A DNA stretch of 64,000 nt from Anthopleura xanthogrammica. Lineage: Eukaryota; Cnidaria; Anthozoa; Actiniaria; Actiniidae. Below are positions 11,520 through 64,000 of the stretch, one piece after another. Numbering within the stretch: position 1 is the stretch's first letter; every line of letters begins with the position of its first letter. The DNA lies in the NCBI GenBank assembly GCA_964019055.1, contig OZ025224.1:7730194-7794193 (forward strand), in the 5' to 3' direction. The notes below the pieces were generated by a model. The model was not told the DNA's origin. It searched no databases and saw only the letters and a list, made by a program, of their open reading frames with translations. The position numbers and the translations under genes are program-made.

Positions 11520-14500
11520 AGACTTGAGCATCTTGTAAAATAATGGATTTACTTTTTAAAAAGAGCCCATAACTGATACTTGAGAAACTCTGTTTTACGC
11601 TAGATTTTTCATGCATTCCATGTAAATTAATCTTCTTTATAGATTTGCTTTTTAGAAATGAAAGTACCTATAGATAATCCATGAAAAACTCATTTTCACA
11701 CTAGATTTTTTGATAAATATCTTGTAGAGTGATTCGTGGATGGACGTACAAGAAAGGATCTATAACTGATCCTTGAGGAACTCCATTTTACGCTAGATTT
11801 TTTGATAAATATCTTGTAGACTGATTCGTGGATGGACGTACAAGAAAGGATCTATAACTGATCCTTGAGGAACTCCATTTTACACTAGAATTTTCATAAA
11901 TAACTCGTAGTCCAACTCGTAGATTCACTTTCTAGAAGGAACTATAAATGTTTCTCGAGGAACTACTTTTTACACTAGATTTTTTGATAAATATCTTGTA
12001 GACTGATTCGTGGATGGACGTACATGAAAGGATCTATAACTGATCCTTGAGGAACTACTTTTTACACTAGATTTCTCATAAACACCTTGTAGTCTAATTT
12101 ATGGATTCACGTTCTAGAAATAACCGATCCTCAGGAACCCCTTACGTTTTGATAAAAGAAATAAAGTTAATTATTTGGTACCAAACATTTGATTACTTTT
12201 TTATCGACAGTCGATACTCCACCTAAATGGGGTCAATGGACAGACTGGGGATCCTGCTCCAAGTCTTGTCATTATGGATTCAAAACCAGGACTCGTGTAT
12301 GTCAAGGAGCAGGATTTGGTCAAACTTGTACAGGATCTCCATTTGAATCAGCCAAGTGTAACGTTGATGTTCCCTGTAAAGGTAATTATCAACCTTTATT
12401 TTCAAAAAAGAACTTCTCTTCAAAGGTCATTCTAACAAAGCCAAGTTTTTCTTTTTTTCTCTCTCTTGAACTCGTTTTCAAAATATATTTAGAAATAGTC
12501 TTTTGACTACAGGAAGATGGAAAAAATCTTACATAAAAAGTTAAGAATTTTGTAAACAATTCTTGTATTTATTTTACAGGAACCGTTGGCTGGAAACAAG
12601 TTACCACAACTGTAGAAGAAACAGTTGGAAAGGTTACACTTACAATCGTAAGAACAGTAAAGACAGACTGCGAAGCGACCATCAAGTAAGAACTGCCATT
12701 TTTAATGTTATTTTGATTATGATGATCAGTCACTTCACCGTAAATTTATAACAAGGGAAGATTCATGGTTTTCGAAAGGGGTTGGGGCTTGGAAGTGTGT
12801 GTGTGTGTTTGGGGGAGGGGGGTGGCCTTCGGTCAGGTCGGATGCATAGGTACGTAGGACAAATGCTGCATTGATTGCTTGTAAGAATCAAGTGTTATCT
12901 CAGCATCCCAAGTGTTTAGATCAGAGTTCCTAAAACGGAAAATATGTAGCGTTGTATGGAATGACATTGGCACAAATTAACGAACGAAAAAATCCAAGCG
13001 TATTTGATGAAAGTGGCTTAACACCAGGAGCGCTAGGTATTCGAGAATTAAGGCGTTATGTTCCTAATAATAACGCATTAAAAAAATACTTCGATCATAT
13101 ATGATATGTAAATGGATGAACGTTTTTGGGGAATCATTCAAGCCGCACGTGCAATAATTATTATTACTTCATTGCGCAGATTTAAAAATTGACAGTCAAA
13201 TCAACATATATCAGAGTATTTTTGTGGATGTGCCATTATGTATATTAAGAAATCGATAATCATTTATTTTTTCAGAGTAAATACCAAAGATGGCACAGCA
13301 GTTCAACCAGGTGACTATGGCAAAATAGAAAATCTTGTCATCGACTTTGCCAAGGGTGAAACTGAGAAGACAGTAACGTTCATCATCAAGAAGGACAGGC
13401 TGATCGAACCTCTGGAGTCATTCACCGCTATCATCACAGCTGAAGCTCACAAACTGAACGTCGATCCTGCCGTAACAACAATCAATATCAAAGACTGTAC
13501 CGGTTAGTAATAATAAATATTTTGATAAAATTAAAACTCGATTATTTATGAAAACATGGCAGGAACTTGGTGTTCGTATCTGACTGACTCGTACAACAAG
13601 AGATGTAAGGCTTTAATGAATAGTCTTTATTCAGCTTTATCTGGAAGACATTAATTTCACTACACTGTACTGGTGTAGTGGCACTTCGGAAGGCGAGCAA
13701 GCCAAGCCAATAATGCTATCTACAATAATGGGAGCCTAGACACGAAAAGCCAAGAAAAGACGCTTTGCGTGAAAAAATAGGGAATGACATTGTGTAGCCT
13801 GCTATGATGCAAACTTTACGCGGACTATGAGTGGACAACATGCGAACGCTGTGGCTTCTCTTGTCTTATTTTTTCCGTGTCGCATGGATGACAAAAACTA
13901 ACGTTTCAGACGTGCAGTGCCGGTACAGAGTCTAGGTATTTTCATTGGACGAAAAAACATCTCGCGCGCTCTGATTTGTTCAAATGATATTGACAATTTT
14001 GTACCTTTCCATTTAAACTTTGTCCTACTTGCTGTTATTGGTCATGCAAATGCTAAGTTGAAGTATTTCTGCACTAAATAGATAATTATCAAATTGGGTG
14101 ATTTACCTCATTGGAGACTTATTAGTTTTATTAAGTCCTATTAGTTCTATTATAAATTACCTGACTTGGAAAAATCTTTCTTTAGCTAAGGTTGGTCTTC
14201 GTCCAGATAGTTATGAAGTTAAGGAAAACTTGAAAATTGTCAAAGTCACTGTGTACAGAGAAGGATGTCTGACTGATACGAATAAAGTCTGGTAAGCTTT
14301 GAAAATAACTTTCTTGTTTGATCTTCAATACGTAATTCCTCTTCTCTCATCACTTTTATTTCCTTTCTTCAGCTATTTTCCTCCTTTTGTTTTTTCTGCG
14401 TTTCTCTTCTTTTCTTTTCTTTTCTTTCCTTTTCTTTTCTGAAACAAAACCTTCACCAACCTTTTTTTTAGAAAAAGCTGTATTATTGAATCCTTTTGCA

Positions 14501-15395
14501 ATTGAAAATAATACATTGAAATATAAAATAATGTTACTTCGCTCTACTAACAGCATTTCCACCGTCGAGGGAACCGCCAAGGCTGCAAGTGACTTCACCG
14601 CCATTTCAAAACAGGAAGTATCCTTCGCACCGACTGAAAAGTCCAAGGAAGTTTCTGTCATTATTGTGGATGATGGTGTAGAAGAACAAGACGAAAAATT
14701 CTTCGTTGAACTCGGCTGTGCAGACCCTGCTACTTTGATAGTTACACCTGGTAAAGCCACTATTGTGGTAAAAGATGATGACGGTAAGTTTATCTTCTTT
14801 CCTTTCATGTCATTAGTTGTCTTCATGATCATTCTCCTTCGCGTTCCTCTTCCTTATTGTTCTTTTTTCTCCTTCTGGTCGCCCTCGTTCTTGTTCTTGT
14901 TATCGTTTTGCGTCCCCTTAGCTACATTAAACTCATTCTCCTGAGCTCAATAATAATCCCAAATGAATCCTCGTTCTTGTCCTTATCGCCATCCTCGAGC
15001 TCTTCCTACTTATTTTTATCCTCGTCTTCGTCGACCTCATATTCGTCCTCCTCACCCTCCTCATCGTAATGGAAAAAAACACCGTCTCCTTCTGTTCCTC
15101 CCCTTCTTCTGCAAATAACAGCAACATAGTAACCTTTTTTTCAAATGTTTCACATAGTTGATGGCAAATGGTCTGACTGGGGTCCATATGGAGACTGCAC
15201 CATGACTTGTGGTGGCGGCAGCCAGACACGATCAAGAACATGTACCAACCCTAAGCCACAAGGAGGTGGAAAAAAATGTGAAGGAGCAGCAGTCAGCTCT
15301 CAGGCCTGCAACACCCATCATTGCCCAAGTAAATAACTATTGCATTTATACATATTTAAAAAGAAGTAAAATTCAATTTTTGCCTTTATTTTACT

Positions 15396-23560: not shown

Positions 23561-23748
23561 GCAGTCAACGTGTCCTTTGTATTTTATTTATATCTATAAG
23601 CCTCTATAATCCCCAACCAGATCAACATAAAAAAATCGGCTCTTCTTGGTGTTGATGGCACCTGATGCATAAACACGATAAAACAATAGCCACGAATAAA
23701 GAACTTAGAACGTAACAATACTCTGCAATTGGTGGTTTAATTAAAAAA

Positions 23749-24321
23749 AACATGGCAGCCATGTTGGATGATATAACAAAAGACATGGCAGCCATGTTGG
23801 ATGTAATAACAAAAGACATGGCAGCCATGTTGGATGATATAACAAAAGACATGGCGGCCATGTTGGATGATATAACAAAAGACATGGCAGCCATGTTGGA
23901 TGATATAACAAAAGACATGGCGGCCATGTTGGATGATATAACAAAAGACATGGCGGCCATGTTGGATGATATAACAAAAGACATGGCAGCCATGTTGGAT
24001 GATATAACAAATGACATGGCAGCCATGTTGGATGATATAACAAAAGACATGGCAGCCATGTTGGATGATATAACAAATGACATGGCGGCCATGTTGGATG
24101 ATATAACAAAAGACATGGCAGCCATGTTGGATGATATAACAAAAGACATGGCGGCCATGTTGGATGATATAACAAAAGACATGGCGGCCATGTTGGATGA
24201 TATAACAAAAGACATGGCCGCCATGTTGGATGATATAACAAAAGACATGGCCGCCATGTTGGATGATATAACAAAAGACATGGCAGCCATGTTGGATGAT
24301 ATAACAAAAGAGACTAATTGC
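23749..24321. repeat. 33-bp minisatellite, about 17.5 copies
   Basis: The unit contains ATGGCAGCCATGTTGGATGA followed by TATAACAAAAGAC. Because 33 is a multiple of three, several frames stay open on both strands; the plus frame would read MAAMLDDITKD repeated. No splice context or start region supports translation. Variation between units is mainly GCAGCC, GCGGCC or GCCGCC. Confidence 0.92.
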
Positions 24322-25775: not shown

Positions 25776-25785
25776 CAGCCAAGCC

Positions 25786-26124
25786 GAATAGACCTTTTTC
25801 CAAAATGGCGGTTGAAAACTCAAATGAGTGAAAATTAAAAGCCAATACCAGCACTAGAAAGAGCACCTTTACTTTAGTAACCCTACAAAGATTCATTCTG
25901 TCAGGTGTTATATCGGCCGAGAAGCATATTTTGAAAATCGACAACCATACAAACGTCTGTAAATTTGTCGATTTTCAAAAAATGTTTTCTCGGCCGATAT
26001 AACACCTGACAGAATGAATCTTTGTAGGGTTACTAAAGTAAAGGTGCTCTTTCTAGTGCTGGTATTGGCTTTTAATTTTCACTCATTTGAGTTTTCAACC
26101 GCCATTTTGGAAAAAGGTCTATTC
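25786..26124. repeat. Foldback MITE-like element, 339 bp
   Basis: Almost the whole element folds on itself. GAATAGACCTTTTTCC at the left pairs with GGAAAAAGGTCTATTC at the right, leaving a loop of about 20 bases near 25955. Confidence 0.85.
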
Positions 26125-26288
26125 GAAAGATGTATTTTATAAAGAAGCTAGACCTGGTAGAGCTATTGAAAGAACCACAGCAGCGCTAGAGAGGGGAGTG
26201 TGGAAAAAGGCTTGGGATAAGAAGAAGAGCAACCGCTAAAATAGTAGAAAAGCGTTGGGTAAAGGTCCGAACTTTACAGTTTTGAACT

Positions 26289-26327
26289 GAAGTGACTGAC
26301 AGGGCAGAAAAACGCAGCGCATGCGCA
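26289..26327 (+). repeat. Left target-site duplication and TIR
   Basis: GAAGTGACT (26289-26297) is followed by the 30-bp TIR (26298-26327). Confidence 0.9.
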
Positions 26328-27526
26328 CGAGACATTCTATCGAATTTATTTCAAAATGGCGGACGAACTAGAGGTGATTGAAGAGAGTCTTCAAAGGCAT
26401 TTTGTAGCTTTTCTGATCAAGTAATTAACATCTACTCTTCACAGTTAGATTGGGCTATATAAGAAATGTTTTCAAGGCTACTAGCCTTCACTGTATTAGC
26501 CAACAACTACTCGCTATAGATGCTCTTCGTTGAAGCCTTCAGACGAGAGAGGATTTTTATCGAGTTCGTGGATGTGCGACGAAAAATCTCAACTATAAGG
26601 TCGTATATAGAAAAATAAGGTTGAAAATACACCAGCGACTACATTGATAAATATTATACAAAATATCAAATGCGCATTTTTTTATTTTGATGCGCATTTT
26701 CAAACGAAGGATTTGAATTCAGGTCGCTGCTAGTACTAAATACTGACACTTCAACAACACCAAAGCAGTTTATTATGATTTCTTCTCTGACACAAATGTT
26801 TATATAATGGTGCTAATAACCTACCAACCTGTATTATATTCTTTATCAAGTGATCAATTAAACTTAAGCTTACATTAAACGTCTTGATAGTTGTAGTTCT
26901 TCGCTGTGAATACGCTCGCACCGCTCGCACAACAAAAGTAAAAAATGGCGCCAAAAATGTGGCACGCGCTTCCACCGTTTCCCGCCTTTTTAAAGAAGCC
27001 ATACAAATGTATTTTTTGTCCACACAAAAACATTTCAAGTATTCAATGTTACGTTCATCAAAATGAATGGCGACAAAATCTGTGTTTTTTCGCCTCGTTC
27101 ACGGAATTCGAGTGACAGTTGTTCTGTTAGACTAACTAAAGTGAGTGGACAAGAAGCTAGAGGGTGTGGTATTCGATACGAAACAGTTATTTGCTTCAAA
27201 CACCTACAAGACAAAAAAAGAAACGATAGTCTGATGTGCTGCTATCCTTTAAAGGAGACCACAAATTGTAGCGGTCAAAAAGTGCCGTGTCCAACAAGAC
27301 TTTTTCAAGTTTTTGACGAGATTGGGAATGAAACAGGTACCCACATTTGTACTAAGCACCTAACGATTGCAGACAGTTCTTCGGAAATCAAGTCTCATGA
27401 AAACTACGTCGGACCAAGTTCAAGAAAAAAGGTATTTTATACAACAAAACTGTAAAAAAAAAATGGGGGGGGGGGGGGGGAAGGAATACATAAAACAAAA
27501 ACAGAACAGAAGCAATACAAAAATAC

Positions 27527-28245
27527 TTTTATTATATATATAACTAGAATTTCATACAATAAATCTCTATTATAAAAATCTCTATGCTTTATATTTCACT
27601 GGTGAAAAATGCAATACGACCAATTAGCATCGCGTACAGCTTTTCACTGTGTAAAAATATAACCAATCAAAATTTAGAGTTGACCAAACCAACCAATCAT
27701 AAAAAGAGCAATTGTGACATTTGAATGGCTTCCCGCCAAAGCAAAGTTGTGTTTTCTGTAGCTTTGTTGATGTGAACAAAATGGCGAGTCGTTTTTTGTC
27801 ACTAGATGTGCCGGTAGATGAGTTTATTCAAAACCAAGAAAACAAAAACACACTAAGCAAGACGAGAGACCTGGCTTTATTGACTACATATCTTGAAACA
27901 AAAAATGTGCAGCAAAACCTGGAAGAAATCCAGCCAAGAGATTTAGACGAGCTGCTTCTTTGCGTGAAGAAACAACAACAAAGCGCCGCCGTTATTGCAT
28001 CTTGGATTCGCCAGACAGCGACTAATTATGAAAAACAGTACATTTTTGATATTTATATTGACTTTTTGTATATTCATTTTCCTTTTATAAACTGACATGA
28101 GGAGTTTTTCAATTTAATTATGTACAGTTGCATGACATTTTAACTTATAAACTTAAAACTTACGAAAGTTTCGACAAAATTTGTCATTTTTATTCAATCA
28201 AAATAAACGTGTTTGTATGTGAATTCTAGTTATATATATAATAAA
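27527..28245 (+). mobile_element. Nested 0.7-kb element with Crypton-like N-terminal ORF
   Basis: Imperfect terminal inverted repeats contain ATTATATATATAACTAGAAT (left from 27531) and its complement (right, ending near 28241). Between them an ORF starts at 27781 with MASRFLSLDVPVDEF, then QENKNTLSKTRDLALL and EIQPRDLDELLL. This is the pattern of the N-terminal SAM-like part of Crypton/KIAA1958-type (DUF3504) tyrosine recombinases, as remembered. The catalytic part is absent; the ORF ends at 28095. It lies inside an intron of the transposase remnant. Confidence 0.55.
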
Positions 28246-28254
28246 GAGAAAACA

Positions 28255-28389
28255 TCATAGAAAGTGCTTTGTACGGGGCTATATTCACTCGTTGTTTGTG
28301 TAAAAACACTCACTCGCTCGAAGACTCGCTCGTTCGTGTTTTACACAAACAACTCGTGAATATAACCCCGTACGCCGCACTTTCTATGA
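28255..28389. repeat. Foldback MITE-like element
   Basis: TCATAGAAAGTGC at the left pairs with GCACTTTCTATGA at the right; the inner arms contain GTACGGGGCTATATTCACTC and its complement with few mismatches. Confidence 0.8.
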
Positions 28390-29917
28390 AGTAATCTATA
28401 TTTATTACACATTACAAAACATTTTGACAATTAACAAAATTAGATAATTTTGAGACCTTTATTTTAAAGACAAAAACATGTACTGATGATGACAAGCAGG
28501 GTGAGATTGAAGACATGAAGAAGAGGATTGAAGAGCTTGAAAGTGAAAATGATGTACTAAAAAAGAAATTGGAAGGTACCTACAAAATAACAAACATATT
28601 TCACAATAAATAACAATTACTGTTATTAATACATGTACTGTTTTATTTTTATTTTTTGAATTTTACAGCTTCATCACTAAAAATTAAAGTACAAAATTTC
28701 CACAAGGCTTTAACCCTACATTACTCTGATAATGGAAAACCACTGTATGACCCAAGAGACTTGAAAAGCTTTAGTGAATCATGTGCCCCTGGTCTGTTCG
28801 ATGAAATATACACATTAATAACAAATGACGACCAAAGAAGAGTAGAAAAGAATAAGCCAAAAAAAGAGAAACAACATCTACAAAGGACAGTGTCAATACT
28901 ACACAATTTCTCATTTTTTAGAAATCAGGTAATGATCCATCAATACAATCATATAAATGTATTTTAAAAAGAGGATTGCTTTGATTCTCTACCAATTCTT
29001 GAATCAGTATACTGATATTCTGATAGTTTAAAATATTTTAAAATATAATTGTAAATTAAAATAAATACCAATTAAGAAAGCTACATGACTGTGAGGCATT
29101 TTGATTTACAGAAAAACAACAAACTGCAGAGTGATTGTGGCCTTTTTCTATTGATGCATGGTGCTTCTGAGCAGGCAATGGTTACAGGAATTATATTATA
29201 CTATGTGGTCGTGCTGCTGAATATCTAATAGATAATTTTGCAGACATATGGAATTGCACCAGTGAAGTAGTCAAGCTACCAAAAGGAAAAAAAAAGTTTC
29301 AGGTGATTTTTTTCTCAACAAAAATAAGAAACCTATTTTTAATTTTATTTTTTCGGCATCTTAAATCTTACTCATTGTAGAATACTACCAAATTAGAAAC
29401 TTGTTTTTGATAATTAAAATTATTTCAACAGCCATACTATTTACCAACCTTTGATGCAACTGTTGACCAACGATGTCTGCCACTAGGCTTTACATGGACA
29501 AAAGACCATCCAGAGCATGATAAGCTTTGCCATATATCAACATGTGCAGATAAGAGCACCAACATCCAGGTCCTGACATGTGGTCACTCATTCCATCACA
29601 ACTGCTTTAAGGATAAGTGTCCAATCTGTCTACCTAAATTACAAGAACAAATGAGAAAGATCGCCACAACTTTTAACTTGGGTCTGTTAAAAGATAAAGA
29701 TGAAGAGAAACAAGATGATGATGACAATGATGATGACAATCAAGATGATGATGATAATGATGAAACAGATGAAAAAACAAAAGAATACTACTCATCTCAA
29801 CAATTTAAAGATAGTCTTATTGCACGTTTCCATGCCCGCATTTCTGAACAATGACTAACTATATTCAGAATTGCTAACTATATGTCAATTGTAAATAGTA
29901 GATTTTGAACAACTTAA

Positions 29918-30019
29918 AGATATAAATAATATTGAGAGTAAAGCTTGATTATATTAAACTGTCTTATAGTGTACACCGAAACGTCGCTTTGTGTACTCTC
30001 AATATTATTTATATCTAAA
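29918..30019. repeat. Small foldback element
   Basis: GATATAAATAATATTGAGAG pairs with CTCTCAATATTATTTATATC downstream. It lies just after the transposase remnant's stop codon. Confidence 0.65.
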
Positions 30020-30151
30020 ATGTAAATAGTAGAAATTTAAGCTTAATGGTAGAAAAAATAATCAGACAAACAATCTAGAATGAGCACAATGTACATAGAT
30101 ATTTTTTAGTACAAAAATAAATGAATGAACTTACCTTTTAGTGTTGCTCAC

Positions 30152-30264
30152 GTTCCACCACCAGACCAATAATTATTCAAATCATCCAGTTTAGGTTTCA
30201 CGAGTCGTGTTAAAAATGAAGTATAATCTCTAAAATACTCGATTGATAAGTTCAAAAAGGCCAT
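30152..30264 (-). other. Possible isolated minus-strand first exon
   Basis: A minus-strand ATG starts MAFLNLSIEYFRDYTSF and runs 113 nt to a good GTGAGC donor. No following exon was found to the left, and it is not part of the palindrome. It could be a leftover of another gene of the element, or chance. Confidence 0.2.
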
Positions 30265-30649
30265 ATTTTCCCCTTAAAATCAGCCACAAACTTAATTTGT
30301 ATCACATATAGATTAAAAGTATGGTAAATCGAAGAGAAATAGAAAATTCTTCTTTAGCTCGAAGTCGTTGCACCATGCGGTCACCGGCGAGAAGTTGGCC
30401 CGGCATTCGGCCCGGGATTCGCCAGCCGCGGATTCGAGAAACATAAACCTATTTTACAACATGTTTTCGAAACAAACCTCAACCTAATTTATTCTATAAT
30501 TGTTCACAATACAATATCGCATTCTTATCACAAAAAGAATTGTTATTCTTATAATTGAATTTGGCTCGGCATACGTTCGCTGGCGGCACTTGGAAAATTT
30601 CACACGTGCTGAAGAATTCAAGGAGAAATTGAATCTCTAATAAATTTTC

Positions 30650-31610
30650 CGCTTTTTATCCCCTAGCATTAAAACTTCTTGAAACACCAAAACAATCATT
30701 CATAAGCCCATTGCAAGTGATTTTGAGTTATTTCAATATTCATTTTTACACTTTTTAAGACGTCTTATCGGTGAGTTTTCACGAAAAATTCCACATTTTA
30801 AACCTTAATAACTTTTACACTTTTCCTTCTACATCCATTAAACTTTCACAGCATATTCCTCATACATCGCTTAACCCATTGCAAAAGGTTTGACGTAATA
30901 CAAATCTTTGAAAGCGCTTCAAAAAAGTTGCCGTAATCCCTTCTTGGTCCCACCGCCCTCCGGGGCACTTTGAAAATTTCACTTTTGCCAGAGAATTCAA
31001 GGACAAATTCAAAGTGTAATAACTTTGCTGTTTTTAACCCTATAGCCTTTAAACTTCGTAAAATGCCACAAAAATAGTTAGGAAACCCATTGCAAGTGAT
31101 TTTGAGTTATTTTAATCTTCATTTTTACACTTTTTGAGACGTCTTACCGGTGAGTTTTCACGAAAAAATCCACATTTTAAACCTTAATAACTTTTACACT
31201 TTTGATTCTACATCCATTAAACTTTCACAGCATATTCCTCATACATCGCTTAACTCATTGCAAAAGGTTTGACGGAATACAAATCTTTGAAAGCGCTTCA
31301 AAAAAGTTGCCGTAATCCCCTCTTGGTCCCGCCGCCCTCCGGGGCACTGAAAATTTCACTTTTGCCAGAGAATTCAAGGACAAATTCAAAGTGTAATAAC
31401 TTTGCTGTTTTTAACCCTATGGCCTTTAAACTTCGTAAAATGCCACAAAAACAGTTAGGAAACCCATTGCAAGTGATTTTGAGTTATTTTAATCTTCATT
31501 TTTACACTTTTTGAGACGTCTTACCGGTGAGTTTTCACGAAAAAATCCACATTTTAAACCTTAATAACTTTTACGCTTTTAATGGTCCCGCCGCCCTACA
31601 GGGCACTTTG
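30650..31610. repeat. ~378-bp tandem repeat, about 2.6 copies (left arm)
   Basis: Units share AAAACTTCGTAAAATGCCAC, GTGAGTTTTCACGAAAAA and CCGCCCTCCGGGGCAC. The mirror array is at about 41035-41995. The spacing of the GTGAAAACTCACC motif there is 376 and 379 bp. Confidence 0.75.
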
Positions 31611-31875
31611 TAGAACTGGGTAATCTATCTCAAAAACACTCAAACAATAAGCAATAGATTATATAACAAGGATTAGGAGTTATTTTGGTCTTGGAGCGAC
31701 TCAGTTTTCTACGCGAGACCACTAAAGTTGAGTCAAAATTCATAGTTACAAATAGCATTTTCGGCGGACTTTGGAAATTTTTCTCCGAAATGAAACGTTA
31801 TTTTATAAAACCAACTATACAGTTATTCTCAGGAAAGATTGCTCTATCAAACTTGAAAGTATGAGCGAAATCGAA

Positions 31876-34423
31876 TTACAGACATCCACTCATAAATGCT
31901 TTTATACGTGAAGCACACTTGTTTTTCCATGATTTGTTTTGGCTTGAAGATGATGGTAATCTTATAGTGGTTCTTGCTGTTTCTGTCACTTGAACATTGA
32001 CATCTTCAGGGCTGACAGTGCTCATCAGAATTTCTACCATATTCTGATACATGGCCGTTACACTACCAACGTCTCTTGCACTTGTTTCTACATAAGGAGA
32101 CTTGATGTTGCTAGCATATTCAACGGCGCTTTCTTGTGGAACGAAAACATCTGGATCAGTAATTTTGGATTTCCTTAAATCCACTTTGTTTCCAACCAGC
32201 AGCATCGGCAAGTTTTCATTGTTGTTATATTTTTTGAGCCTCTCTATCCAGAATGGCAAACTTCGAAGTGATACTTTGTTAGAAACATCATAGACCAGAA
32301 AAACACCATCAACATCGCGGTAATAAGTTGATGTCAAGCAAAAGTATCGCTCTTCTCCTGAGGTATCCACTATTTCCATCCTTACGACGTTTTCATTGTA
32401 CTCAAAATAATGTACCGCTGGTTCTATTTTCACTGTAGCTTTCATCATAGCTGTGTCTATATCAAAGACCGGGTTTCTCAACAGCTCAAATAGACTTGTC
32501 TTTCCAACATTATGATTTCCAAGAAGTAGTACTTTGAAGTGATAATCATGAGCTGGCCTCTGACACACTCTCTCAAAAGTGGGAGCTTGCTGTGCCTTTT
32601 GACGCTCTCTTTCATCTTTGATTTTTCCCAGTTTAGTGACTAATTCGCTTGCACTTGGTCTGCTAGAACTCTTGTCTTGAAGACACTTGATAACTAGCTT
32701 TTTTAGTTTGTCCTCTTTCATCTCGTCGATGTCTTTTTGCCTTCTCTTTTTTTCTGAAAATTTCCCTTTGGTACAAATTTAACAAAAGTTAGACGGTATA
32801 TTTTATATATGTTACATACAATATGAGTGTCCAATTTGTGTGGCTGGTCTGTAAGAACGGTCCCAAAGCATGAGAGGGATGGGGGGGGGGGGGGGGGGGG
32901 GCGGAGCCGGGTGATAGTAAAGCCCATAAAGATCGGACTGGAGTATTGTATATTGCTTATCAAATGTCTAGGAGTATAATTTCTACTATTTTTTTGAGAT
33001 TCAAGTGGATTTGACAGACAGAAAATCCATGTTACAGTCAAAAAGGCTCAAGCGTACCCCCCTAGGTTCCATTATTGATTTTATTATTCGAATATTGAGT
33101 TGATTATTCACTTTGAATTTTCATTAATAAATCGAAGACTCCAAACTTCACATTCAATTCAAAACTAAAATTCTAAGGGATGGCCTTTCTGGGGAGTTTT
33201 TCTACCTTGGCCGTGACAATTATTGAAGAATCGAATCAAAACTTAAGTATTAATATACAAGGCCAAATATTTAACTGCCCTCACTAAAACGTTCAGTCTA
33301 GCGGACCAAACGCCAAGCGCGCGGGCTGTAAATGCATTTACCGCCCTGCTTCGACCTGAAACTTAAACTTAAACTTAAACTTTTGATATTGAATATAATT
33401 TGGCCTTGTATATTAACGATAATTGTGATTTAATTAAGTGAAATAAGATATTATTAAAAATATATATCATAATAATTGGTAAGGTCTAACTGATATGTGA
33501 GAAAAATTATAATTTATAACACATATGACATAATTAATAGATTTCTCCTATAATACGGGAATATGAGCGAAGGAAGTCGAATCAGTCAGTTTCCGACGGC
33601 TAGTCGCGAATAGTGCGAATCATCATTATTCGGGACTATTCGCCACTATTCGTGACTATTCGGGTTTTATCACTAGCCGTTTCCGTTGTTATCGTTGCTT
33701 CGATTTTCGATATTTTCGTTTGGTATTTAACTTATCTTTACCTTTTGCAGGCAAAACACAAACACGAGGTTCGTGACCAACGCTCATTTCCAGCAGCACC
33801 ACTCCAAAGGAAAAAATATCAACGCTAACCTCATACATCCCCATACGGGTTTCAGGAGCAGCATACAAGGGCGTACCTGCCCTTGGGGTTGCTAAATCGT
33901 CTTGGCCAGAAAGCAATAATTTGGCAAGTCCCAGATCTGCTATCTTTGGCTGGTCGTCCTTTGATAACAGAATGTTTTTAGATGCAAGATCTCGATGAAC
34001 CACAGAAGGAGTCAGTTCATCATGTAAGTACTTTAAACCTTTAGCGACTCCTAGAGCGATTGACACTACTTTCTCTGGACTGACTTTAGGAGTGCTTGTG
34101 GATTTCTTTATGTAATGCATTAGATCACAGTGCATTAGCTCCATAAGAATAGCTTGTGGGTCAAACTTCATCGTGTGTATTTTGACGATGTTTGGATGGT
34201 CCAACGCTCGTAGTGTTTCCCACTCTTCCCTTAATCCTTCAATAACTTCTGTTTTGAGGAATTCTTTATGAATTCGCTTGGCAGCCACCACCGTCACCCT
34301 TCCATTTTCATCTTTCCATTCAGCACGCCAAACGTTGCCGTACGATCCTTCTCCAATTTTCTCGTTATAAATAATCCTTTCTTTTGGTTTTCTTAAAGAA
34401 GCGGTTGAAAACTCTGTACTCAT
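31876..34423 (-). CDS. Kinase-Rab-like GTPase fusion protein, left-arm copy, 519 aa
   Basis: Mirror copy of 38218-40770. Exon 1 is 33742-34423 and exon 2 is 31876-32753, on the minus strand, with the same GT-AG splice sites and stop. The two exon translations are identical to the right copy, although the intron differs in the length of its G/C homopolymer and a few bases. The two genes are divergent from the palindrome centre, each with about 1.7 kb between its start codon and the spacer. Identical coding sequence argues for recent duplication or ongoing gene conversion between the arms. Confidence 0.8.
33254..33421. repeat. MITE-like insertion in the kinase-GTPase intron (left arm)
   Basis: Ends TAATATACAAGGCCAAAT and its inverted partner enclose AAACTTAAACTTAAACTT repeats. 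The same insertion is in the right arm at 39225-39392, so it predates the arm duplication. Confidence 0.6.
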
Positions 34424-34879
34424 GATGATTTAGGGGAACAGTACGTATTTCCTTCTTAGTTATGGTTTGAATTTGTGGATGAAAAAAATACTAAAGAAGA
34501 AGATAAGTTTATACATTTGCAAATATACCTCACCTTGACAGGTGTTGCGTTGTATTCATAATATGAACATCTTGAAACCAAGATTTCCAAGAAAAACGAT
34601 TGTTGACTCCAAGCTCCCATCATGCTGTTGGAAATCTAATAAGTAAAAAGACTCTGGGATAGGTGAAATCCATATGCAAATCAAAGAATGTTGTTGCTAA
34701 CTCTATTATGATTGTCAACAATAAACTTGCCGTATAAATTAAATCCTCGTCTCGATTTGAGCAGGTGGACGTTGCCAAAATCCAGAATGGGGAATGAGAA
34801 CTGAGGAATAGAGATTGTACAGTTTAGTTTGAGGTTCCAGGCTTGTGTATTAGAGTGGTTTGGCCTTTTAGCAATACAA

Positions 34880-35560
34880 TAAAGTCCAATATCTTAGACG
34901 ATCGAGAGAGACTAGGGAGAGTAGCATAAAAACGAGGCATCCAGGCCACATCAATCTATCATACAGTGTTATTTTATCATTATGGCGCAAAATTGAGGTG
35001 TTCCTGAATGTAAGAAGAAAAATGTATACTTCGTATAGATGCCATATAATACACCTTTCCGGTAATGACATCACACTTCTTGGAAACGATGCTCCATGGC
35101 TATAGTATTTTCCCGAGTCGAGTAAAAGATTCATAAAATCGGAAAAAAAGGCAAATCAAACAAGATAATGACAACCAAGTCGAGAAAAAAAGTCAAAAAT
35201 GTATCTGAAAGTTTTCCGAAGACGATACTGGTTGCTTCATTCAGAAAAGATCCAAAATAGCTCTCTCTAAAGCAGGTGAAACCCTTGTTGTCGAAGAAAA
35301 GCAACGAAATGTCCAAACAAAAGATGAGCTTGTTTTGCTTGTTGAAAGTTATAACATCACAGAAGTATGAATAAAATCATCTACCCAGATCAAGACAAAG
35401 TTTTTAAATAAGAAAAGCTTGAGGATGAGAAGAACAACAGCAAAGTAAGCGATGCTAAAAGAACTGTAATCATGAAAGCTGTCCACCGAATCGCTTGAAA
35501 ACCGTTCGAGAGCAAACCTCAACACCAAGATATTTTTCTCCATGGTCATGATGAATTGAT
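34880..35560 (+). pseudogene. Possible decayed ORF in the palindrome arm (left copy)
   Basis: The plus strand has broken but protein-like reading stretches: VQYLRRSRETRESS, then KVKNVSESFPKTILVASF, then ALSKAGETLVVEEKQ with a stop after YNITEV, and KLEDEKNNSKVSDAKR. Frame changes separate them. The hydrophobic minus-strand frames in the same place look like their antisense shadow. The same sequence occurs inverted at about 37092-37770. No family was recognised. Confidence 0.25.
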
Positions 35561-36160
35561 TTAGATTTTAATTACATATACTAATTTCCTCTTCTAGTTT
35601 AATAATGCAGAGTTTCAGTGATTTTCATCGAAAACAGAGCCTGAAAACGTACTTTGTTAACTTCAAATGTTAGGTAGAGAACTTGGTTTCGGCAGGTTTT
35701 CATTTCGCTTGGATAATATTTTACAATATACAATAATTTTTCCTTTTCCTGTGCCGTTTAGAAATTGTTTAGAGTGTCCCGGATATTAACAGTTTTTTGT
35801 CCTGCAAATAAGTGTTAACAAAATCAGTTCTCACTACACAAGTGGCGATGTTTTATTTTGAAAACTGACTCTTTTTCTCCTCACCTTCTAGCTAACTTTT
35901 CTCATTGTTTAGCGTCCAGTGGAAATTTTTGATAGCTTAAGGTGGCTTCCTATAGTATTCTTCAGACCATACCTTTCATTTTCATTTGGCTTATTTATAG
36001 TCTAAACTTACACCTATATACTTGGTTTTTGGACCAGTGATAATGCTTGGATGAAAGTTTGGATTGATGTCAGTTTTAGCTTGATTGGCGTTACCTTGGC
36101 AACGATAAACAAATATGGTCGAAATTAGTTTTTGTAGAATAACTCTAAAACACGATGAGA

Positions 36161-36491
36161 TTTTTTTTTTCATTGCATGAATATTTTGATATTTTAATAA
36201 ATATTAATGCAATGAAAAAAAAAATTGTATCTCTGCTTCGGTAAAGAATTAAGATTTAGCATTTAGTCAGAGGGAAGTGTATAAGGAAAGGTCTTTTCTA
36301 TAGTATTTTTATGTTATTTCGTTTTTTTCCAAGTATCGATTAGGCCACCGCCATCTTTCAACATACGAAAATTACGGCTTTAGAGTATTTCTGCGAATTA
36401 CTCAAAATCAAACAGATTGATTTTTTTTTAAATAGTGAGAACTGTTCCGCAATATTATGAAGTTTATGATGTTATTAACCGCTTGTCCAGG
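36161..36491. other. Palindrome spacer, 331 bp
   Basis: Unique sequence between the arms. It includes a small hairpin: TTTTTTTTTTCATTGCAT at the left pairs with an ATGCAATGAAAAAAAAA stretch 40 bp later. No coding signal was seen. Confidence 0.8.
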
Positions 36492-38217
36492 TCTCATCGT
36501 GTTTTAGAGTTATTCTACAAAAACTAATTTCGACCATATTTGTTTATCGTTGCCAAGGTAACGCCAATCAAGCTAAAACTGACATCAATCCAAACTTTCA
36601 TCCAAGCATTATCACTGGTCCAAAAACCAAGTATATAGGTGTAAGTTTAGACTATAAATAAGCCAAATGAAAATGAAAGGTATGGTCTGAAGAATACTAT
36701 AGGAAGCCACCTTAAGCTATCAAAAATTTCCACTGGACGCTAAACAATGAGAAAAGTTAGCTAGAAGGTGAGGAGAAAAAGAGTCAGTTTTCAAAATAAA
36801 ACATCGCCACTTGTGTAGTGAGAACTGATTTTGTTAACACTTATTTGCAGGACAAAAAACTGTTAATATCCGGGACACTCTAAACAATTTCTAAACGGCA
36901 CAGGAAAAGGAAAAATTATTGTATATTGTAAAATATTATCCAAGCGAAATGAAAACCTGCCGAAACCAAGTTCTCTACCTAACATTTGAAGTTAACAAAG
37001 TACGTTTTCAGGCTCTGTTTTCGATGAAAATCACTGAAACTCTGCATTATTAAACTAGAAGAGGAAATTAGTATATGTAATTAAAATCTAAATCAATTCA
37101 TCATGACCATGGAGAAAAATATCTTGGTGTTGAGGTTTGCTCTCGAACGGTTTTCAAGCGATTCGGTGGACAGCTTTCATGATTACAGTTCTTTTAGCAT
37201 CGCTTACTTTGCTGTTGTTCTTCTCATCCTCAAGCTTTTCTTATTTAAAAACTTTGTCTTGATCTGGGTAGATGATTTTATTCATACTTCTGTGATGTTA
37301 TAACTTTCAACAAGCAAAACAAGCTCATCTTTTGTTTGGACATTTCGTTGCTTTTCTTCGACAACAAGGGTTTCACCTGCTTTAGAGAGAGCTATTTTGG
37401 ATCTTTTCTGAATGAAGCAACCAGTATCGTCTTCGGAAAACTTTCAGATACATTTTTGACTTTTTTTCTCGACTTGGTTGTCATTATCTTGTTTGATTTG
37501 CCTTTTTTTCCGATTTTATGAATCTTTTACTCGACTCGGGAAAATACTATAGCCATGGAGCATCGTTTCCAAGAAGTGTGATGTCATTACCGGAAAGGTG
37601 TATTATATGGCATCTATACGAAGTATACATTTTTCTTCTTACATTCAGGAACACCTCAATTTTGCGCCATAATGATAAAATAACACTGTATGATAGATTG
37701 ATGTGGCCTGGATGCCTCGTTTTTATGCTACTCTCCCTAGTCTCTCTCGATCGTCTAAGATATTGGACTTTATTGTATTGCTAAAAGGCCAAACCACTCT
37801 AATACACAAGCCTGGAACCTCAAACTAAACTGTACAATCTCTATTCCTCAGTTCTCATTCCCCATTCTGGATTTTGGCAACGTCCACCTGCTCAAATCGA
37901 GACGAGGATTTAATTTATACGGCAAGTTTCTTGTTGACAATCATAATAGAGTTAGCAACAACATTCTTTGATTTGCATATGGATTTCACCTATCCCAGAG
38001 TCTTTTTACTTATTAGATTTCCAACAGCATGATGGGAGCTTGGAGTCAACAATCGTTTTTCTTGGAAATCTTGGTTTCAAGATGTTCATATTATGAATAC
38101 AACGCAACACCTGTCAAGGTGAGGTATATTTGCAAATGTATAAACTTATCTTCTTCTTTAGTATTTTTTTCATCCACAAATTCAAACCATAACTAAGAAC
38201 TGTTCCCCTAAATCATC

Positions 38218-40770
38218 ATGAGTACAGAGTTTTCAACCGCTTCTTTAAGAAAACCAAAAGAAAGGATTATTTATAACGAGAAAATTGGAGAAGGATCGTA
38301 CGGCAACGTTTGGCGTGCTGAATGGAAAGATGAAAATGGAAGGGTGACGGTGGTGGCTGCCAAGCGAATTCATAAAGAATTCCTCAAAACAGAAGTTATT
38401 GAAGGATTAAGGGAAGAGTGGGAAACACTACGAGCGTTGGACCATCCAAACATCGTCAAAATACACACGATGAAGTTTGACCCACAAGCTATTCTTATGG
38501 AGCTAATGCACTGTGATCTAATGCATTACATAAAGAAATCCACAAGCACTCCTAAAGTCAGTCCAGAGAAAGTAGTGTCAATCGCTCTAGGAGTCGCTAA
38601 AGGTTTAAAGTACTTACATGATGAACTGACTCCTTCTGTGGTTCATCGAGATCTTGCATCTAAAAACATTCTGTTATCAAAGGACGACCAGCCAAAGATA
38701 GCAGATCTGGGACTTGCCAAATTATTGCTTTCTGGCCAAGACGATTTAGCAACCCCAAGGGCAGGTACGCCCTTGTATGCTGCTCCTGAAACCCGTATGG
38801 GGATGTATGAGGTTAGCGTTGATATTTTTTCCTTTGGAGTGGTGCTGCTGGAAATGAGCGTTGGTCACGAACCTCGTGTTTGTGTTTTGCCTGCAAAAGG
38901 TAAAGATAAGTTAAATACCAAACGAAAATATCGAAAATCGAAGCAACGATAACAACGGAAACGGCTAGTGATAAAACCCGAATAGTCACGAATAGTGGCG
39001 AATAGTCCCGAATAATGATGATTCGCACTATTCGCGACTAGCCGTCGGAAACTGACTGATTCGACTTCCTTCGCTCATATTCCCGTATTATAGGAGAAAT
39101 CTATTAATTATGTCATATGTGTTATAAATTATAATTTTTCTCACATATCAGTTAGACCTTACCAATTATTATGATATATATTTTTAATAATATCTTATTT
39201 CACTTAATTAAATCACAATTATCGTTAATATACAAGGCCAAATTATATTCAATATCAAAAGTTTAAGTTTAAGTTTAAGTTTCAGGTCGAAGCAGGGCGG
39301 TAAATGCATTTACAGCCCGCGCGCTTGGCGTTTGGTCCGCTAGACTGAACGTTTTAGTGAGGGCAGTTAAATATTTGGCCTTGTATATTAATACTTAAGT
39401 TTTGATTCGATTCTTCAATAATTGTCACGGCCAAGGTAGAAAAACTCCCCAGAAAGGCCATCCCTTAGAATTTTAGTTTTGAATTGAATGTGAAGTTTGG
39501 AGTCTTCGATTTATTAATGAAAATTCAAAGTGAATAATCAACTCAATATTCGAATAATAAAATCAATAATGGAACCTAGGGGGGTACGCTTGAGCCTTTT
39601 TGACTGTAACATGAATTTTCTGTCTGTCAAATCCACTTGAATCTCAAAAAAATAGTAGAAATTATACTCCTAGACATTTGATAAGCATGTACAATACTCC
39701 AGTCCGATCTTTATGGGCTTTACTATCACCCGGCTCCGCCCCCCCCCCCCCCCCCCCCCCCCCCCATCCCTCTCATGCTTTGGGACCGTTCTTACAGACC
39801 AGCCACACAAATTGGACACTCATATTGTATGTAACATATATAAAATATACCGTCTAACTTTTGTTAAATTTGTACCAAAGGGAAATTTTCAGAAAAAAAG
39901 AGAAGGCAAAAAGACATCGACGAGATGAAAGAGGACAAACTAAAAAAGCTAGTTATCAAGTGTCTTCAAGACAAGAGTTCTAGCAGACCAAGTGCAAGCG
40001 AATTAGTCACTAAACTGGGAAAAATCAAAGATGAAAGAGAGCGTCAAAAGGCACAGCAAGCTCCCACTTTTGAGAGAGTGTGTCAGAGGCCAGCTCATGA
40101 TTATCACTTCAAAGTACTACTTCTTGGAAATCATAATGTTGGAAAGACAAGTCTATTTGAGCTGTTGAGAAACCCGGTCTTTGATATAGACACAGCTATG
40201 ATGAAAGCTACAGTGAAAATAGAACCAGCGGTACATTATTTTGAGTACAATGAAAACGTCGTAAGGATGGAAATAGTGGATACCTCAGGAGAAGAGCGAT
40301 ACTTTTGCTTGACATCAACTTATTACCGCGATGTTGATGGTGTTTTTCTGGTCTATGATGTTTCTAACAAAGTATCACTTCGAAGTTTGCCATTCTGGAT
40401 AGAGAGGCTCAAAAAATATAACAACAATGAAAACTTGCCGATGCTGCTGGTTGGAAACAAAGTGGATTTAAGGAAATCCAAAATTACTGATCCAGATGTT
40501 TTCGTTCCACAAGAAAGCGCCGTTGAATATGCTAGCAACATCAAGTCTCCTTATGTAGAAACAAGTGCAAGAGACGTTGGTAGTGTAACGGCCATGTATC
40601 AGAATATGGTAGAAATTCTGATGAGCACTGTCAGCCCTGAAGATGTCAATGTTCAAGTGACAGAAACAGCAAGAACCACTATAAGATTACCATCATCTTC
40701 AAGCCAAAACAAATCATGGAAAAACAAGTGTGCTTCACGTATAAAAGCATTTATGAGTGGATGTCTGTAA
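38218..40770 (+). CDS. Kinase-Rab-like GTPase fusion protein, right-arm copy, 519 aa
   Basis: Two exons, 38218-38899 and 39893-40770, join in frame over a GT-AG intron of 993 bp. Residues 18-270 are a protein kinase: GEGSYGNV loop, Lys49 in VAAK, HRDLASKN (143-150), DLG (163-165, replacing DFG), APE (189-191), and a C-lobe end CLQDKSSSRPSASEL encoded by exon 2. The catalytic residues are all present. Residues about 298-475 are a Rab/Ras-like GTPase: GNHNVGKT (306-313), DTSGEE (357-362), NKVD (416-419), ETSA. The catalytic Gln of DTAGQE is Glu here. The C-terminus ends SGCL and lacks a clear CaaX or double-Cys prenylation signal. The fusion puts a kinase before a GTPase, unlike LRRK/Roco order. 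A signalling role is inferred; the substrate is unknown. Both arms encode the same protein. Confidence 0.8.
39225..39392. repeat. MITE-like insertion in the kinase-GTPase intron (right arm)
   Basis: Mirror copy of 33254-33421. Confidence 0.6.
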
Positions 40771-41034
40771 TTCGATTTCGCTCATACTTTCAAGTTTGAT
40801 AGAGCAATCTTTCCTGAGAATAACTGTATAGTTGGTTTTATAAAATAACGTTTCATTTCGGAGAAAAATTTCCAAAGTCCGCCGAAAATGCTATTTGTAA
40901 CTATGAATTTTGACTCAACTTTAGTGGTCTCGCGTAGAAAACTGAGTCGCTCCAAGACCAAAATAACTCCTAATCCTTGTTATATAATCTATTGCTTATT
41001 GTTTGAGTGTTTTTGAGATAGATTACCCAGTTCT

Positions 41035-41995
41035 ACAAAGTGCCCTGTAGGGCGGCGGGACCATTAAAAGCGTAAAAGTTATTAAGGTTTAAAATGTGGA
41101 TTTTTTCGTGAAAACTCACCGGTAAGACGTCTCAAAAAGTGTAAAAATGAAGATTAAAATAACTCAAAATCACTTGCAATGGGTTTCCTAACTGTTTTTG
41201 TGGCATTTTACGAAGTTTAAAGGCCATAGGGTTAAAAACAGCAAAGTTATTACACTTTGAATTTGTCCTTGAATTCTCTGGCAAAAGTGAAATTTTCAGT
41301 GCCCCGGAGGGCGGCGGGACCAAGAGGGGATTACGGCAACTTTTTTGAAGCGCTTTCAAAGATTTGTATTCCGTCAAACCTTTTGCAATGAGTTAAGCGA
41401 TGTATGAGGAATATGCTGTGAAAGTTTAATGGATGTAGAATCAAAAGTGTAAAAGTTATTAAGGTTTAAAATGTGGATTTTTTCGTGAAAACTCACCGGT
41501 AAGACGTCTCAAAAAGTGTAAAAATGAAGATTAAAATAACTCAAAATCACTTGCAATGGGTTTCCTAACTATTTTTGTGGCATTTTACGAAGTTTAAAGG
41601 CTATAGGGTTAAAAACAGCAAAGTTATTACACTTTGAATTTGTCCTTGAATTCTCTGGCAAAAGTGAAATTTTCAAAGTGCCCCGGAGGGCGGTGGGACC
41701 AAGAAGGGATTACGGCAACTTTTTTGAAGCGCTTTCAAAGATTTGTATTACGTCAAACCTTTTGCAATGGGTTAAGCGATGTATGAGGAATATGCTGTGA
41801 AAGTTTAATGGATGTAGAAGGAAAAGCGTAAAAGTTATTAAGGTTTAAAATGTGGAATTTTTCGTGAAAACTCACCGATAAGACGTCTTAAAAAGTGTAA
41901 AAATGAATATTGAAATAACTCAAAATCACTTGCAATGGGCTTATGAATGATTGTTTTGGTGTTTCAAGAAGTTTTAATGCTAGGGGATAAAAAGC
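41035..41995. repeat. ~378-bp tandem repeat, about 2.6 copies (right arm)
   Basis: Mirror of the array at 30650-31610. Motif GTGAAAACTCACC occurs at about 41109, 41485 and 41864. Confidence 0.75.
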
Positions 41996-42484
41996 GGAAA
42001 ATTTATTAGAGATTCAATTTCTCCTTGAATTCTTCAGCACGTGTGAAATTTTCCAAGTGCCGCCAGCGAACGTATGCCGAGCCAAATTCAATTATAAGAA
42101 TAACAATTCTTTTTGTGATAAGAATGCGATATTGTATTGTGAACAATTATAGAATAAATTAGGTTGAGGTTTGTTTCGAAAACATGTTGTAAAATAGGTT
42201 TATGTTTCTCGAATCCGCGGCTGGCGAATCCCGGGCCGAATGCCGGGCTAACTTCTCGCCGGTCATGCGGTCAGCTACAAGATCCGACAAAAAATCAAAG
42301 TTTTTGCCACAAATGTTGAAGAAATCGTCAAAAATAATTTGCACAATTACAATTACACTTTTCTCCAGGATAAATGAGTATTTTTGAGTTTCGATTTGCA
42401 ATTTCAAAGGAAAAAAGCGCCTTTGTTTACGAGTTCCAACACAAATACCGCCAAGACAATCGACTCGTGGCACTCAATGCGTAA

Positions 42485-42523
42485 TGCGCATGCGCTGCGT
42501 TTTTCTGCCCTGTCGAAGTGACT
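42485..42523 (-). repeat. Right TIR and target-site duplication
   Basis: The TIR at 42485-42514 is the exact reverse complement of the left one and is followed by GAAGTGACT at 42515-42523. Confidence 0.9.
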
Positions 42524-63300: not shown

Positions 63301-63792
63301 GTCGATGGATATTGTGATGCGTATGGCAGTTGGGGCAAATGCACCAAGACATGTGGTGGTGGATCTTGTACAAGGACAAGAAAATGTCACCCACCGAAAT
63401 ATGGAGGAAAACCTTACGTCGGAGTTCCAGATGAAACTAAGGCATGTGGAACCGCTCATTGCCCAGGTAAATCGCCCAATCAAATAACACGTGCAAATAG
63501 TGTAAATCATTCATTGCCGTAGTGTCTGTGATTTATCAAAATCCCCGGGATGATGTTCTGTGTAAATCATAAATGCTAAGTGAAGCATAATCTTTTTAAA
63601 GTATGACTACTTTACAATCTTGTCTAGTCGATGGATATTGTGATCCTTATAGCAGCTGGGGTTCATGCAGCAGGACGTGTGGAGGTGGATATTGTACAAG
63701 AGCACGAAAATGTTACCAACCGAAATATGGAGGAAAACCATGCCCAGGAACTACTGTGGAAACTCAATCATGTAAACCTCATCCTTGCCCAG
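57002..63792 (+). CDS. Gene D (3'-partial): secreted TSP1-array protein
   Basis: Exons: 57002-57086 (signal peptide [20 protein letters not shown]), 57469-57633, 58135-58311, 58936-59100, 59247-59411, 59558-59722, 62397-62561, 62708-62872, 63019-63183, 63302-63466, 63628-63792, continuing beyond the window. After the signal exon each exon is one TSP1 domain bounded by phase-1 introns. The first two are diverged; the last eight are near-identical 165-nt exons with [18 protein letters not shown] and CPG ends. They lack the first two Trp of the usual WxxWxxW ladder but keep the CxxTCG O-fucosylation site. The product is predicted to be extracellular. A 2.5-kb insertion splits the array between 59722 and 62397. 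Whether Calx-beta domains follow is not visible here. Confidence 0.87.
57277..57342. repeat. (GAAA)n microsatellite
   Basis: About 16 tetramer units in gene D intron 1. Confidence 0.9.
57820..58030. repeat. (CATC)n microsatellite
   Basis: Degenerate ATCCATCCAC-type repeats in gene D intron 2. Confidence 0.8.
60139..60303. repeat. Foldback element
   Basis: GTTTTCAGGGGAGATCGGG at the left pairs with CCCGATATCCCCTGAAAAC at the right. Confidence 0.75.
60458..61238 (-). pseudogene. Crypton-like tyrosine recombinase fragment, core deleted
   Basis: The minus-strand ORF from 61238 contains [19 protein letters not shown], then [20 protein letters not shown] and PPSSLYAII, the N-terminal pattern of KIAA1958/Crypton-type (DUF3504) proteins as remembered. 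It stops at 60819, where a second frame takes over ([42 protein letters not shown] to 60458), which looks like the C-terminal tail of the same family. The catalytic domain between them is missing and the junction is out of frame. It is likely a non-functional remnant. Confidence 0.55.
61395..61498. repeat. Foldback element
   Basis: TTTATAAAACTCGAG at the left pairs with CTCGTTTTATAAA at the right; inner arms TGTTTTATCGGC and GCCGATAAAACA. Confidence 0.75.
61625..61803. repeat. Foldback element, nearly perfect hairpin
   Basis: AATAAAAAACAGTTTTCCGT at the left pairs exactly with ACGGAAAACTGTTTTTTATT at the right; the arms are about 80 bp. Confidence 0.85.
62006..62170 (-). pseudogene. Second Crypton-like C-terminal fragment
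   Basis: The minus strand reads [20 protein letters not shown] and ends [11 protein letters not shown] before a stop at 62006-62008. It parallels the tail of the fragment at 60458 ([10 protein letters not shown]...FRNCTINF) but is clearly diverged, so it derives from a related element. Confidence 0.5.
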
Positions 63793-64000
63793 GTACCAAA
63801 TCTTTATATGCACTTTAAAGTAAGAATTATTACAAACGTAAAGAATTCTATTGATAATTGTTAAACACATTTCAAAATTCCGATGTGTATGTATTTGGCA
63901 TTTTACACATGTTCATCGTTGCATAGCTAGCACTAGAAAAAGGCCAGCGAAGTGGGAGGGGATGACCGGGCTATATGGCCCCTTCTCCCGTTAGTTCACG

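Follow-up and report, generated by a model that had tools for sequence, protein, structure and literature searches.

How did two copies of a signalling gene come to lie between the perfect inverted ends of a DNA transposon? The question is raised by a 64,000-nucleotide stretch of the Anthopleura xanthogrammica genome (contig OZ025224.1, here C21:7730194-7794193), called the window below, in which a 16.2-kb segment with terminal inverted repeats (TIRs) and a flanking target site duplication (TSD) encloses two copies of a gene coding for a protein kinase fused to a Ras-like GTPase. The initial annotation read the segment as a single transposon with its own cargo. Our analysis indicates that the locus very probably consists of two nested cut-and-paste transposons and that the kinase-GTPase gene arrived with the inner one. 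The genome searched comprises 290 Mb in 125 contigs, labelled C2, C3 and so on, and the coordinates of the features are collected in Table 1.

The outer boundaries are real. The two TIRs are inverted and identical at 30 of 30 positions and the 9-bp repeat GAAGTGACT abuts both of them, as had been claimed. By simple arithmetic with equal base use, a perfect 30-bp inverted pair is expected by chance in 64 kb with a frequency of about 2e-9, and the abutting 9-bp direct repeat contributes a further chance factor of about 4e-6. A genome search with the TIR 30-mer, allowing up to 3 mismatches, found eight sites (none for the reversed control), namely the window pair, a pair on C2, a pair on C19, a single end on C6 and an end with one mismatch on C10, so the objection that the TIR might have no other copy in the genome fails. 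The C2 copy measures 3974 bp and is flanked by the TSD TTCTTGGCC, and the C19 copy, with both TIRs, measures 3972 bp. Without its inner insert the outer element of the window would be about 4.3 kb long, including an 866-bp miniature inverted-repeat transposable element (MITE) for which the genome has dozens of related matches. In two shared blocks the window copy diverges by 0.25-0.83% from the copies on C2, C19 and C6, and the outer copies among themselves by 0.16-0.83%. The outer element in the window is young.

What lies between these ends is not of one piece. The sequence CATGCGGTC is doubled around an insert in the window and is present as a single copy at the matching site on C2, C19 and C6. 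All three of the other outer copies that span the junction therefore have an empty site, and none of them holds the cargo. Both termini of the insert read ACCGGCGAGAAGTT, in inverted orientation. Because it has its own 9-bp TSD and an empty site in the sister copies, the insert is best regarded as a separate transposon. The idea of one 16.2-kb transposon with signalling cargo of its own can appeal to the outer TIRs and TSD, which surround everything, and the whole could still move as a unit, but the inner duplication, the empty sites and the fact that the inner ends constitute a family of their own make it very improbable. The large element with perfect TIRs and a 9-bp TSD that was first described thus stands, whereas its ownership of the cargo does not.

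The insert is a near-perfect palindrome, with arms at 30383-36160 (5778 bp) and 36492-42263 (5772 bp) and a 331-nt spacer. The two intact kinase-GTPase copies reported before do have open frames and can be spliced, but what was seen as two copies is the pair of arms of a single 11.88-kb palindrome. Between the arms there are 5 substitutions (0.09% in 5.77 kb) and indels of 6, 1 and 11 nt, all of them outside the coding exons. Assembly fold-back artefacts typically show near-identical arms around a short spacer, which is also the look of this insert. A fold-back read producing a false palindrome is nonetheless a most improbable explanation: next to the right arm stands the right-hand end that the outer element would otherwise lack, with its TIR, followed by its TSD and a different flank; moreover, the inner TSD is doubled precisely, and the substitutions and indels just given separate the arms.

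Relatives of the inner ends occur elsewhere. The 21-bp inner terminus, with up to 3 mismatches, gave 17 matches in the genome including the two of the window, against 0 for the control. A complete member was found at C4:9956942-9960676; it is 3735 bp long, is flanked by the TSD CATTGCTCC, has 95% similarity between its TIRs, each of about 600 bp, and contains an interior that differs from that of the window element and lacks the kinase. Both of the two complete members found are therefore flanked by 9-bp duplications (CATGCGGTC and CATTGCTCC). The inner element has the foldback trait of long inverted ends with internal subrepeats, its arms reaching 5.77 kb. Twelve loci in the genome match the profile of Mutator-like elements (MULEs), and about 200 kb separate the nearest of them from the closest of the 17 termini. 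The inner element is non-autonomous here.

The captured gene was worked out on the right arm, where two exons with GT-AG borders and matching phases give a spliced product of 519 amino acids. The corresponding open reading frames (ORFs) of the left arm match the Pfam protein kinase (exon 1, E 1.9e-39) and Ras (exon 2, E 1.2e-33) families. Searching the genome with the DNA of the kinase exon yielded seven matches; two are the arms, the other five lie in a 23-kb span of C3, and no match was found beyond the window and C3. At C3:8440820-8465519 five or more kinase-GTPase fusion genes or fragments of them stand in tandem, and this cluster is related to the cargo's source. The closest relative in it, C3a, is 92.9% identical over 39845-40750 (exon 2 and the intron edge) and 77% over 38158-38935 (exon 1). 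Since part of the intron aligns with C3a too, the comparison indicates a capture at the level of DNA, intron included, and not of spliced RNA; a retrotransposed cargo was rejected because of this retained and partly alignable intron.

A tree of 15 proteins joined the captured gene and C3a at 100/100, and two C3 paralogues (short rows) paired in it with Actinia proteins at 98/96 and 95/95. The best named relatives over most of the length are from Actinia tenebrosa (51, 45 and 43% identity), and further ones are from Stylophora (38%), Montipora (38%), Acropora (34%) and Porites (33%). Genes with this kinase-GTPase fusion form a family already present in anthozoans, and judging from these alignments the capture was from the lineage of the host C3 cluster. 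The last residues of the captured protein, a tail that follows KCAS, are not common to C3a. Synonymous divergence (dS) from C3a is 0.43 in exon 1 and 0.10 in exon 2, an unevenness that points to a mosaic gene or to a parent since lost.

That the gene might be a useful cargo, an accessory signalling gene aiding transposon or host, is favoured by its 519 open codons, by the good kinase and Ras profile matches and by ratios of nonsynonymous to synonymous divergence (dN/dS) of 0.36 in exon 1 and 0.66 in exon 2. However, relative-rate counts with three outgroups (tests that are not independent) gave 19-21 private changes in the captured kinase exon and 9-11 in that of C3a, about twice as many (chi-square 3.1-4.2), while the GTPase exon was even, with 6-12 in the captured gene and 8-13 in C3a. 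This pattern fits a partly relaxed constraint on a gene whose frame is still open. Moreover, the kinase-exon search of the genome found no amplified copy, and the other complete foldback member, on C4, is without the gene. We therefore consider a useful cargo quite unlikely and the gene most likely to be a passenger with partly relaxed constraint, as opposed to one that serves the transposon in an accessory role. Of the earlier proposal, the capture of a host gene holds and the accessory role is disfavoured.

Two further transposable elements (TEs), here called X and Y, bear on how the palindrome was built. A solo terminal repeat of X stands between the foldback end and the gene, and its outer end provides the final two bases of the stop codon of the captured gene. 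The foldback-X junction was not found elsewhere among the best 40 candidates of each of the foldback-end and X searches. X is an abundant inverted-repeat transposon; its ends measure about 270 bp, and pairing them by eye delimits elements of 2.3-3.9 kb. The symmetry axis lies within Y, a MITE, and many other places have its ends (TTAAGGTGG) and its inverted arms. Two full copies of Y that were fetched, from C4 and C21, are 1.05-kb palindromes, and the Y of the window is a deletion form. Arm identity extends beyond the ends of Y on both sides, which an ordinary insertion of Y would not yield, and for this reason the palindrome would postdate the insertion of Y.

The simplest reading of these features is the following course. 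A foldback-family end would have been joined, via a fragment of X, to a host gene with Y upstream. This one-ended segment (foldback end, X fragment, gene and Y) may then have been inversely duplicated, primed between the inverted repeats of Y, and the two matching ends thus gained could have allowed a transposase acting in trans to move the element into the outer one. That the palindrome already existed, made at Y, when the element inserted has in our view an even chance. Alternatively, a foldback element that held the gene but was not yet palindromic might have inserted first, and one arm would then have been copied over the other in place by gene conversion or template switching. The 0.09% between the arms lies below the divergence between the outer copies, and the inverted repeat of Y at the axis could have primed such an event too; direct evidence for it is absent, and the good family termini at both ends and the perfect TSD fit insertion as a palindrome but do not require it. 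We regard formation after insertion as possible, although rather unlikely.

Several points weigh against two nested transposons, the inner of which became a palindrome at Y before it inserted. On C19 the outer copy has unduplicated flanks and hence no matching TSD. The cargo-bearing element was found once, so that one TSD alone speaks for its having moved as an 11.88-kb unit. Nine other one-end loci, fetched with about 3 kb each, showed no second end with a TSD, and six ends on C5 have one common flank and are probably segmental copies and not separate insertions. A transposase for the foldback-like family was not found. The Y of the window lacks the complete palindrome of the copies on C4 and C21, we infer the order of events and the duplication primed by Y, and a conversion between the arms after insertion would look alike. 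Finally, dN/dS below 1 shows constraint and does not fix its date, which leaves some room for a useful cargo.

The outer element raises a question of its own, namely which transposase it belonged to. Within 26298-30382 only residues 6-66 and 130-206 of the protein P0121 are recognisable (E up to 1e-3), in agreement with the gutted transposase-like gene that had been noticed. The sister copies on C2, C6 and C10 match further stretches of P0121. Three candidate motifs (P0121 276, 445 and 634) are all lost from the outer body of the window, and of these C2 retains the third only, C6 the first two and the C10 outer copy all three. Because the three motifs are gone, the outer element in the window is predicted to be non-autonomous. 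The alignments show an element that lost the exons with the candidate catalytic residues, gained a MITE and received the 11.88-kb element with its own TSD.

The first protein query was a hand-joined sequence of 826 amino acids from the C10 outer copy, which among 7999 candidates scored had two matches, P0122 (38%) and, from Desmophyllum pertusum, P0121 (40%). P0121 in turn gave 77 exon-wise matches in the genome, including an open frame of 1069 amino acids on C20, and this frame as query matched 75 proteins. The nine of these rows that are named by organism are all cnidarian (Exaiptasia, three from Oculina, Dendronephthya, Desmophyllum, Acropora, Paramuricea and Rhopilema; at least seven genera). 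Alignment A3 has 71 rows, made of 69 of the 75 proteins plus P0121 and P0122, with P0148, P0153, P0173, P0183, P0189 and P0193 dropped by hand before residues were counted. Two adjacent aspartates are conserved in all 57 rows with a letter there, D295 in 68 of 69, H371 in 71 of 71 and both E523 and E527 in 69 of 69; the cysteines and histidines of the RING finger are also kept. D139/D140, D295 and E523/E527 of P0123 are candidate DDE residues and not demonstrated ones, and the outer proteins form a RING-containing group that is possibly one of DDE transposases.

No Pfam transposase model matched this group (22 members, E up to 1, 25 of 30 families listed, and further profile scans), and the 49 matches of a PDB sequence search with A3 all lie within the RING stretch. 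Literature titles and abstracts held no recognised description of the group, with subscription journals covered in part and Repbase outside that coverage. The C20 frame (L063:864-4073) is an intronless ORF of the RING group with a RING finger and a conserved C-terminal SNACT motif. Its C-terminal stretch looks protease-like, and a Pfam scan gave no profile match for it. Near the C10 outer copy there is also a tyrosine-recombinase-like ORF (L014:6963-7553, Phage_integrase E 1.5e-6), perhaps of a Crypton. A Crypton reading of the outer element is disfavoured, as this ORF lies beyond the RING exon of the C10 copy and the 9-bp TSDs favour a transposase; no such ORF is among those of the 5.6-kb relative described next.

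This relative, L064:373-5993 (C10) and L065:322-5942 (C13), is 99.9% identical between the two loci over 5622 bp and carries a RING-type putative transposase. Its TIRs begin GACACCGCGG, its perfect 9-bp TSDs are CCTCATGAC and AATTAGATC, and eleven near-equal matches exist elsewhere; it was probably active recently. Because the two copies are near-identical and have 9-bp TSDs, the RING-transposase group appears to make 9-bp duplications and to have moved recently. TIRs starting with GACA, together with 9-bp TSDs, occur in the window element, in the C2 copy and in this distant family, and the outer element shows transposase homology to the P0121-P0197 group. Named members of the group come from seven or more cnidarian genera; the group has no Pfam family, and it includes very young copies. 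Taken jointly, the outer element would represent an undescribed cnidarian superfamily (RING, putative D-D-E, GACA TIRs, 9-bp TSDs, at least one very recently active family) that hosts a transposon born from the inverted duplication, about a MITE axis, of a one-ended capture. We put this combined view forward tentatively, as falling somewhat short of probable.

Table 1. Features of the nested elements (positions in the window)
Feature	Position	Strand	Remarks
Outer TSD, left copy	26289-26297		GAAGTGACT
Outer left TIR, 30 bp	26298-26327	+	Recurs elsewhere in the genome
Outer body, left part	26298-30382	+	Includes first copy of inner TSD; aligned with C2, C19, C6
Outer transposase remnant	27333-27524	+	P0121 residues 6-66
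MITE inside outer element, 866 bp	27535-28400		Flanked by TTTATTA at 27528-27534 and 28401-28407
Outer transposase remnant	28689-28928	+	P0121 residues 130-206
ORF with RING-like finger of outer transposase	29414-29854	+	RING matches under Pfam cut-off
Inner TSD, left copy	30374-30382		CATGCGGTC
Inner foldback-like element, 11881 bp	30383-42263		Near-perfect palindrome
Foldback-family terminal region, left	30383-31610	+	Begins ACCGGCGAGAAGTT; 379-bp subrepeats at 30585-31580
Solo terminal repeat of TE X	31611-31877		Abundant TE, at least 38 scored matches elsewhere
Captured gene exon 2, left arm	31876-32753	-	Kinase C-lobe end, Ras-like GTPase, stop; mirrored from right arm
Captured gene exon 1, left arm	33742-34423	-	Kinase domain; mirrored from right arm
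Nested MITE Y, palindrome axis	35937-36715		TTAAGGTGG ends; arms 35937-36160 and 36492-36715, 331-nt centre
Captured gene exon 1, right arm	38218-38899	+	Kinase domain; GT donor next
Captured gene exon 2, right arm	39893-40770	+	GTPase; stop 40768-40770
Solo terminal repeat of TE X, right-arm copy	40769-41035		
Foldback terminal region, right arm	41036-42263	-	With subrepeats
Inner TSD, right copy	42264-42272		CATGCGGTC
Outer right-end remainder	42273-42514	+	TIR at 42485-42514; alignment to sister copies
Outer TSD, right copy	42515-42523		GAAGTGACT

The remainder of the window holds other repeats and ORFs. An inverted repeat with perfect 139-bp arms around a 63-nt loop lies just left of the outer element (25785-26125), and a 33-bp minisatellite of 17 copies with 96% matches and several open frames occupies 23745-24311. 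Two ORFs with Calx-beta domains (305-850 and 14336-14941; Pfam E 2.1e-13 and 1e-14) are probably exons of one or more host genes. Units of 311 bp, about 94% alike in two blocks, are repeated in tandem at 58887-63795, and the translated unit looks by eye like a thrombospondin type-1 repeat.

Among known systems, Polintons have a 6-bp TSD and polymerase and integrase genes; this reading of the outer element was rejected on its 9-bp TSD and on the absence of such domains from the six ORFs scanned. Merlin elements combine TSDs of 8-9 bp with a Merlin-type transposase, and here the TSD suits but no Pfam transposase match was obtained, for which reason this placement was rejected too. The TSD length alone would also suit a MULE (8-11 bp), but the scans gave no match to PF10551 and the MULE loci of the genome lie elsewhere. 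For the KDZ group Pfam contains a model, and the outer element had no Pfam transposase match. KDZ elements, like the outer one, are DNA transposons, and one account gives TSDs of 8 bp for Zisupton and a Dileera family and of 7 bp for the TIR-less Kyakuja, with extra genes in some Dileera and Kyakuja elements (PMC12730594). The 9-bp TSD together with TIRs argues against placing the outer element there as well, and the families that the initial annotation had named (KDZ, MULE and Polinton) remain without support for it.

Enzyme cargo is known from fungal DNA transposons, where several superfamilies carry TET/JBP genes and the TET+ IS3EU families have such a gene between the transposase and an alpha-kinase gene (PMC12730594). 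Kinase cargo as such is therefore not new. The fungal cargoes described there recur in many families, whereas the window holds one captured copy, of a fusion between a protein kinase and a Ras-like GTPase (PMC12730594). Both transposons of the nest appear young, and its limits are sharply drawn. Host-gene capture by a transposon is a known kind of event; the build of the locus and the outer transposase group are its interesting parts, and the latter may be the more novel one.

For the inner element, FB of Drosophila is the comparison of Foldback type. Tm1 of Meloidogyne has composite TIRs of variable length, mostly 9-bp TSDs without consensus and several kinds of interior, and the inner element resembles both in its long, subrepeat-bearing ends and its 9-bp TSD (PMC3169594). 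Unlike them, it has TIRs as long as 5.77 kb with an entire host gene and its intron inside, and in contrast to the Mutator-related Foldback elements no transposase has been linked to its family in our searches. Pack-MULEs and MULEs with multiple long TIRs are described as having integrated acquired host sequence into extended TIRs (PMC3310237). The inner element likewise holds captured host sequence within its TIRs, and differs from the plant MULEs with gene fragments treated there in its animal genome, its complete ORF and the MITE at its axis (PMC3310237). What the locus adds is an animal foldback-like element with an entire signalling gene, intron included, in each of its arms. A MITE marks the axis, a TE fragment borders the end of the gene and the sister copies have empty sites, an anatomy that suggests how one-ended captures may become mobile.

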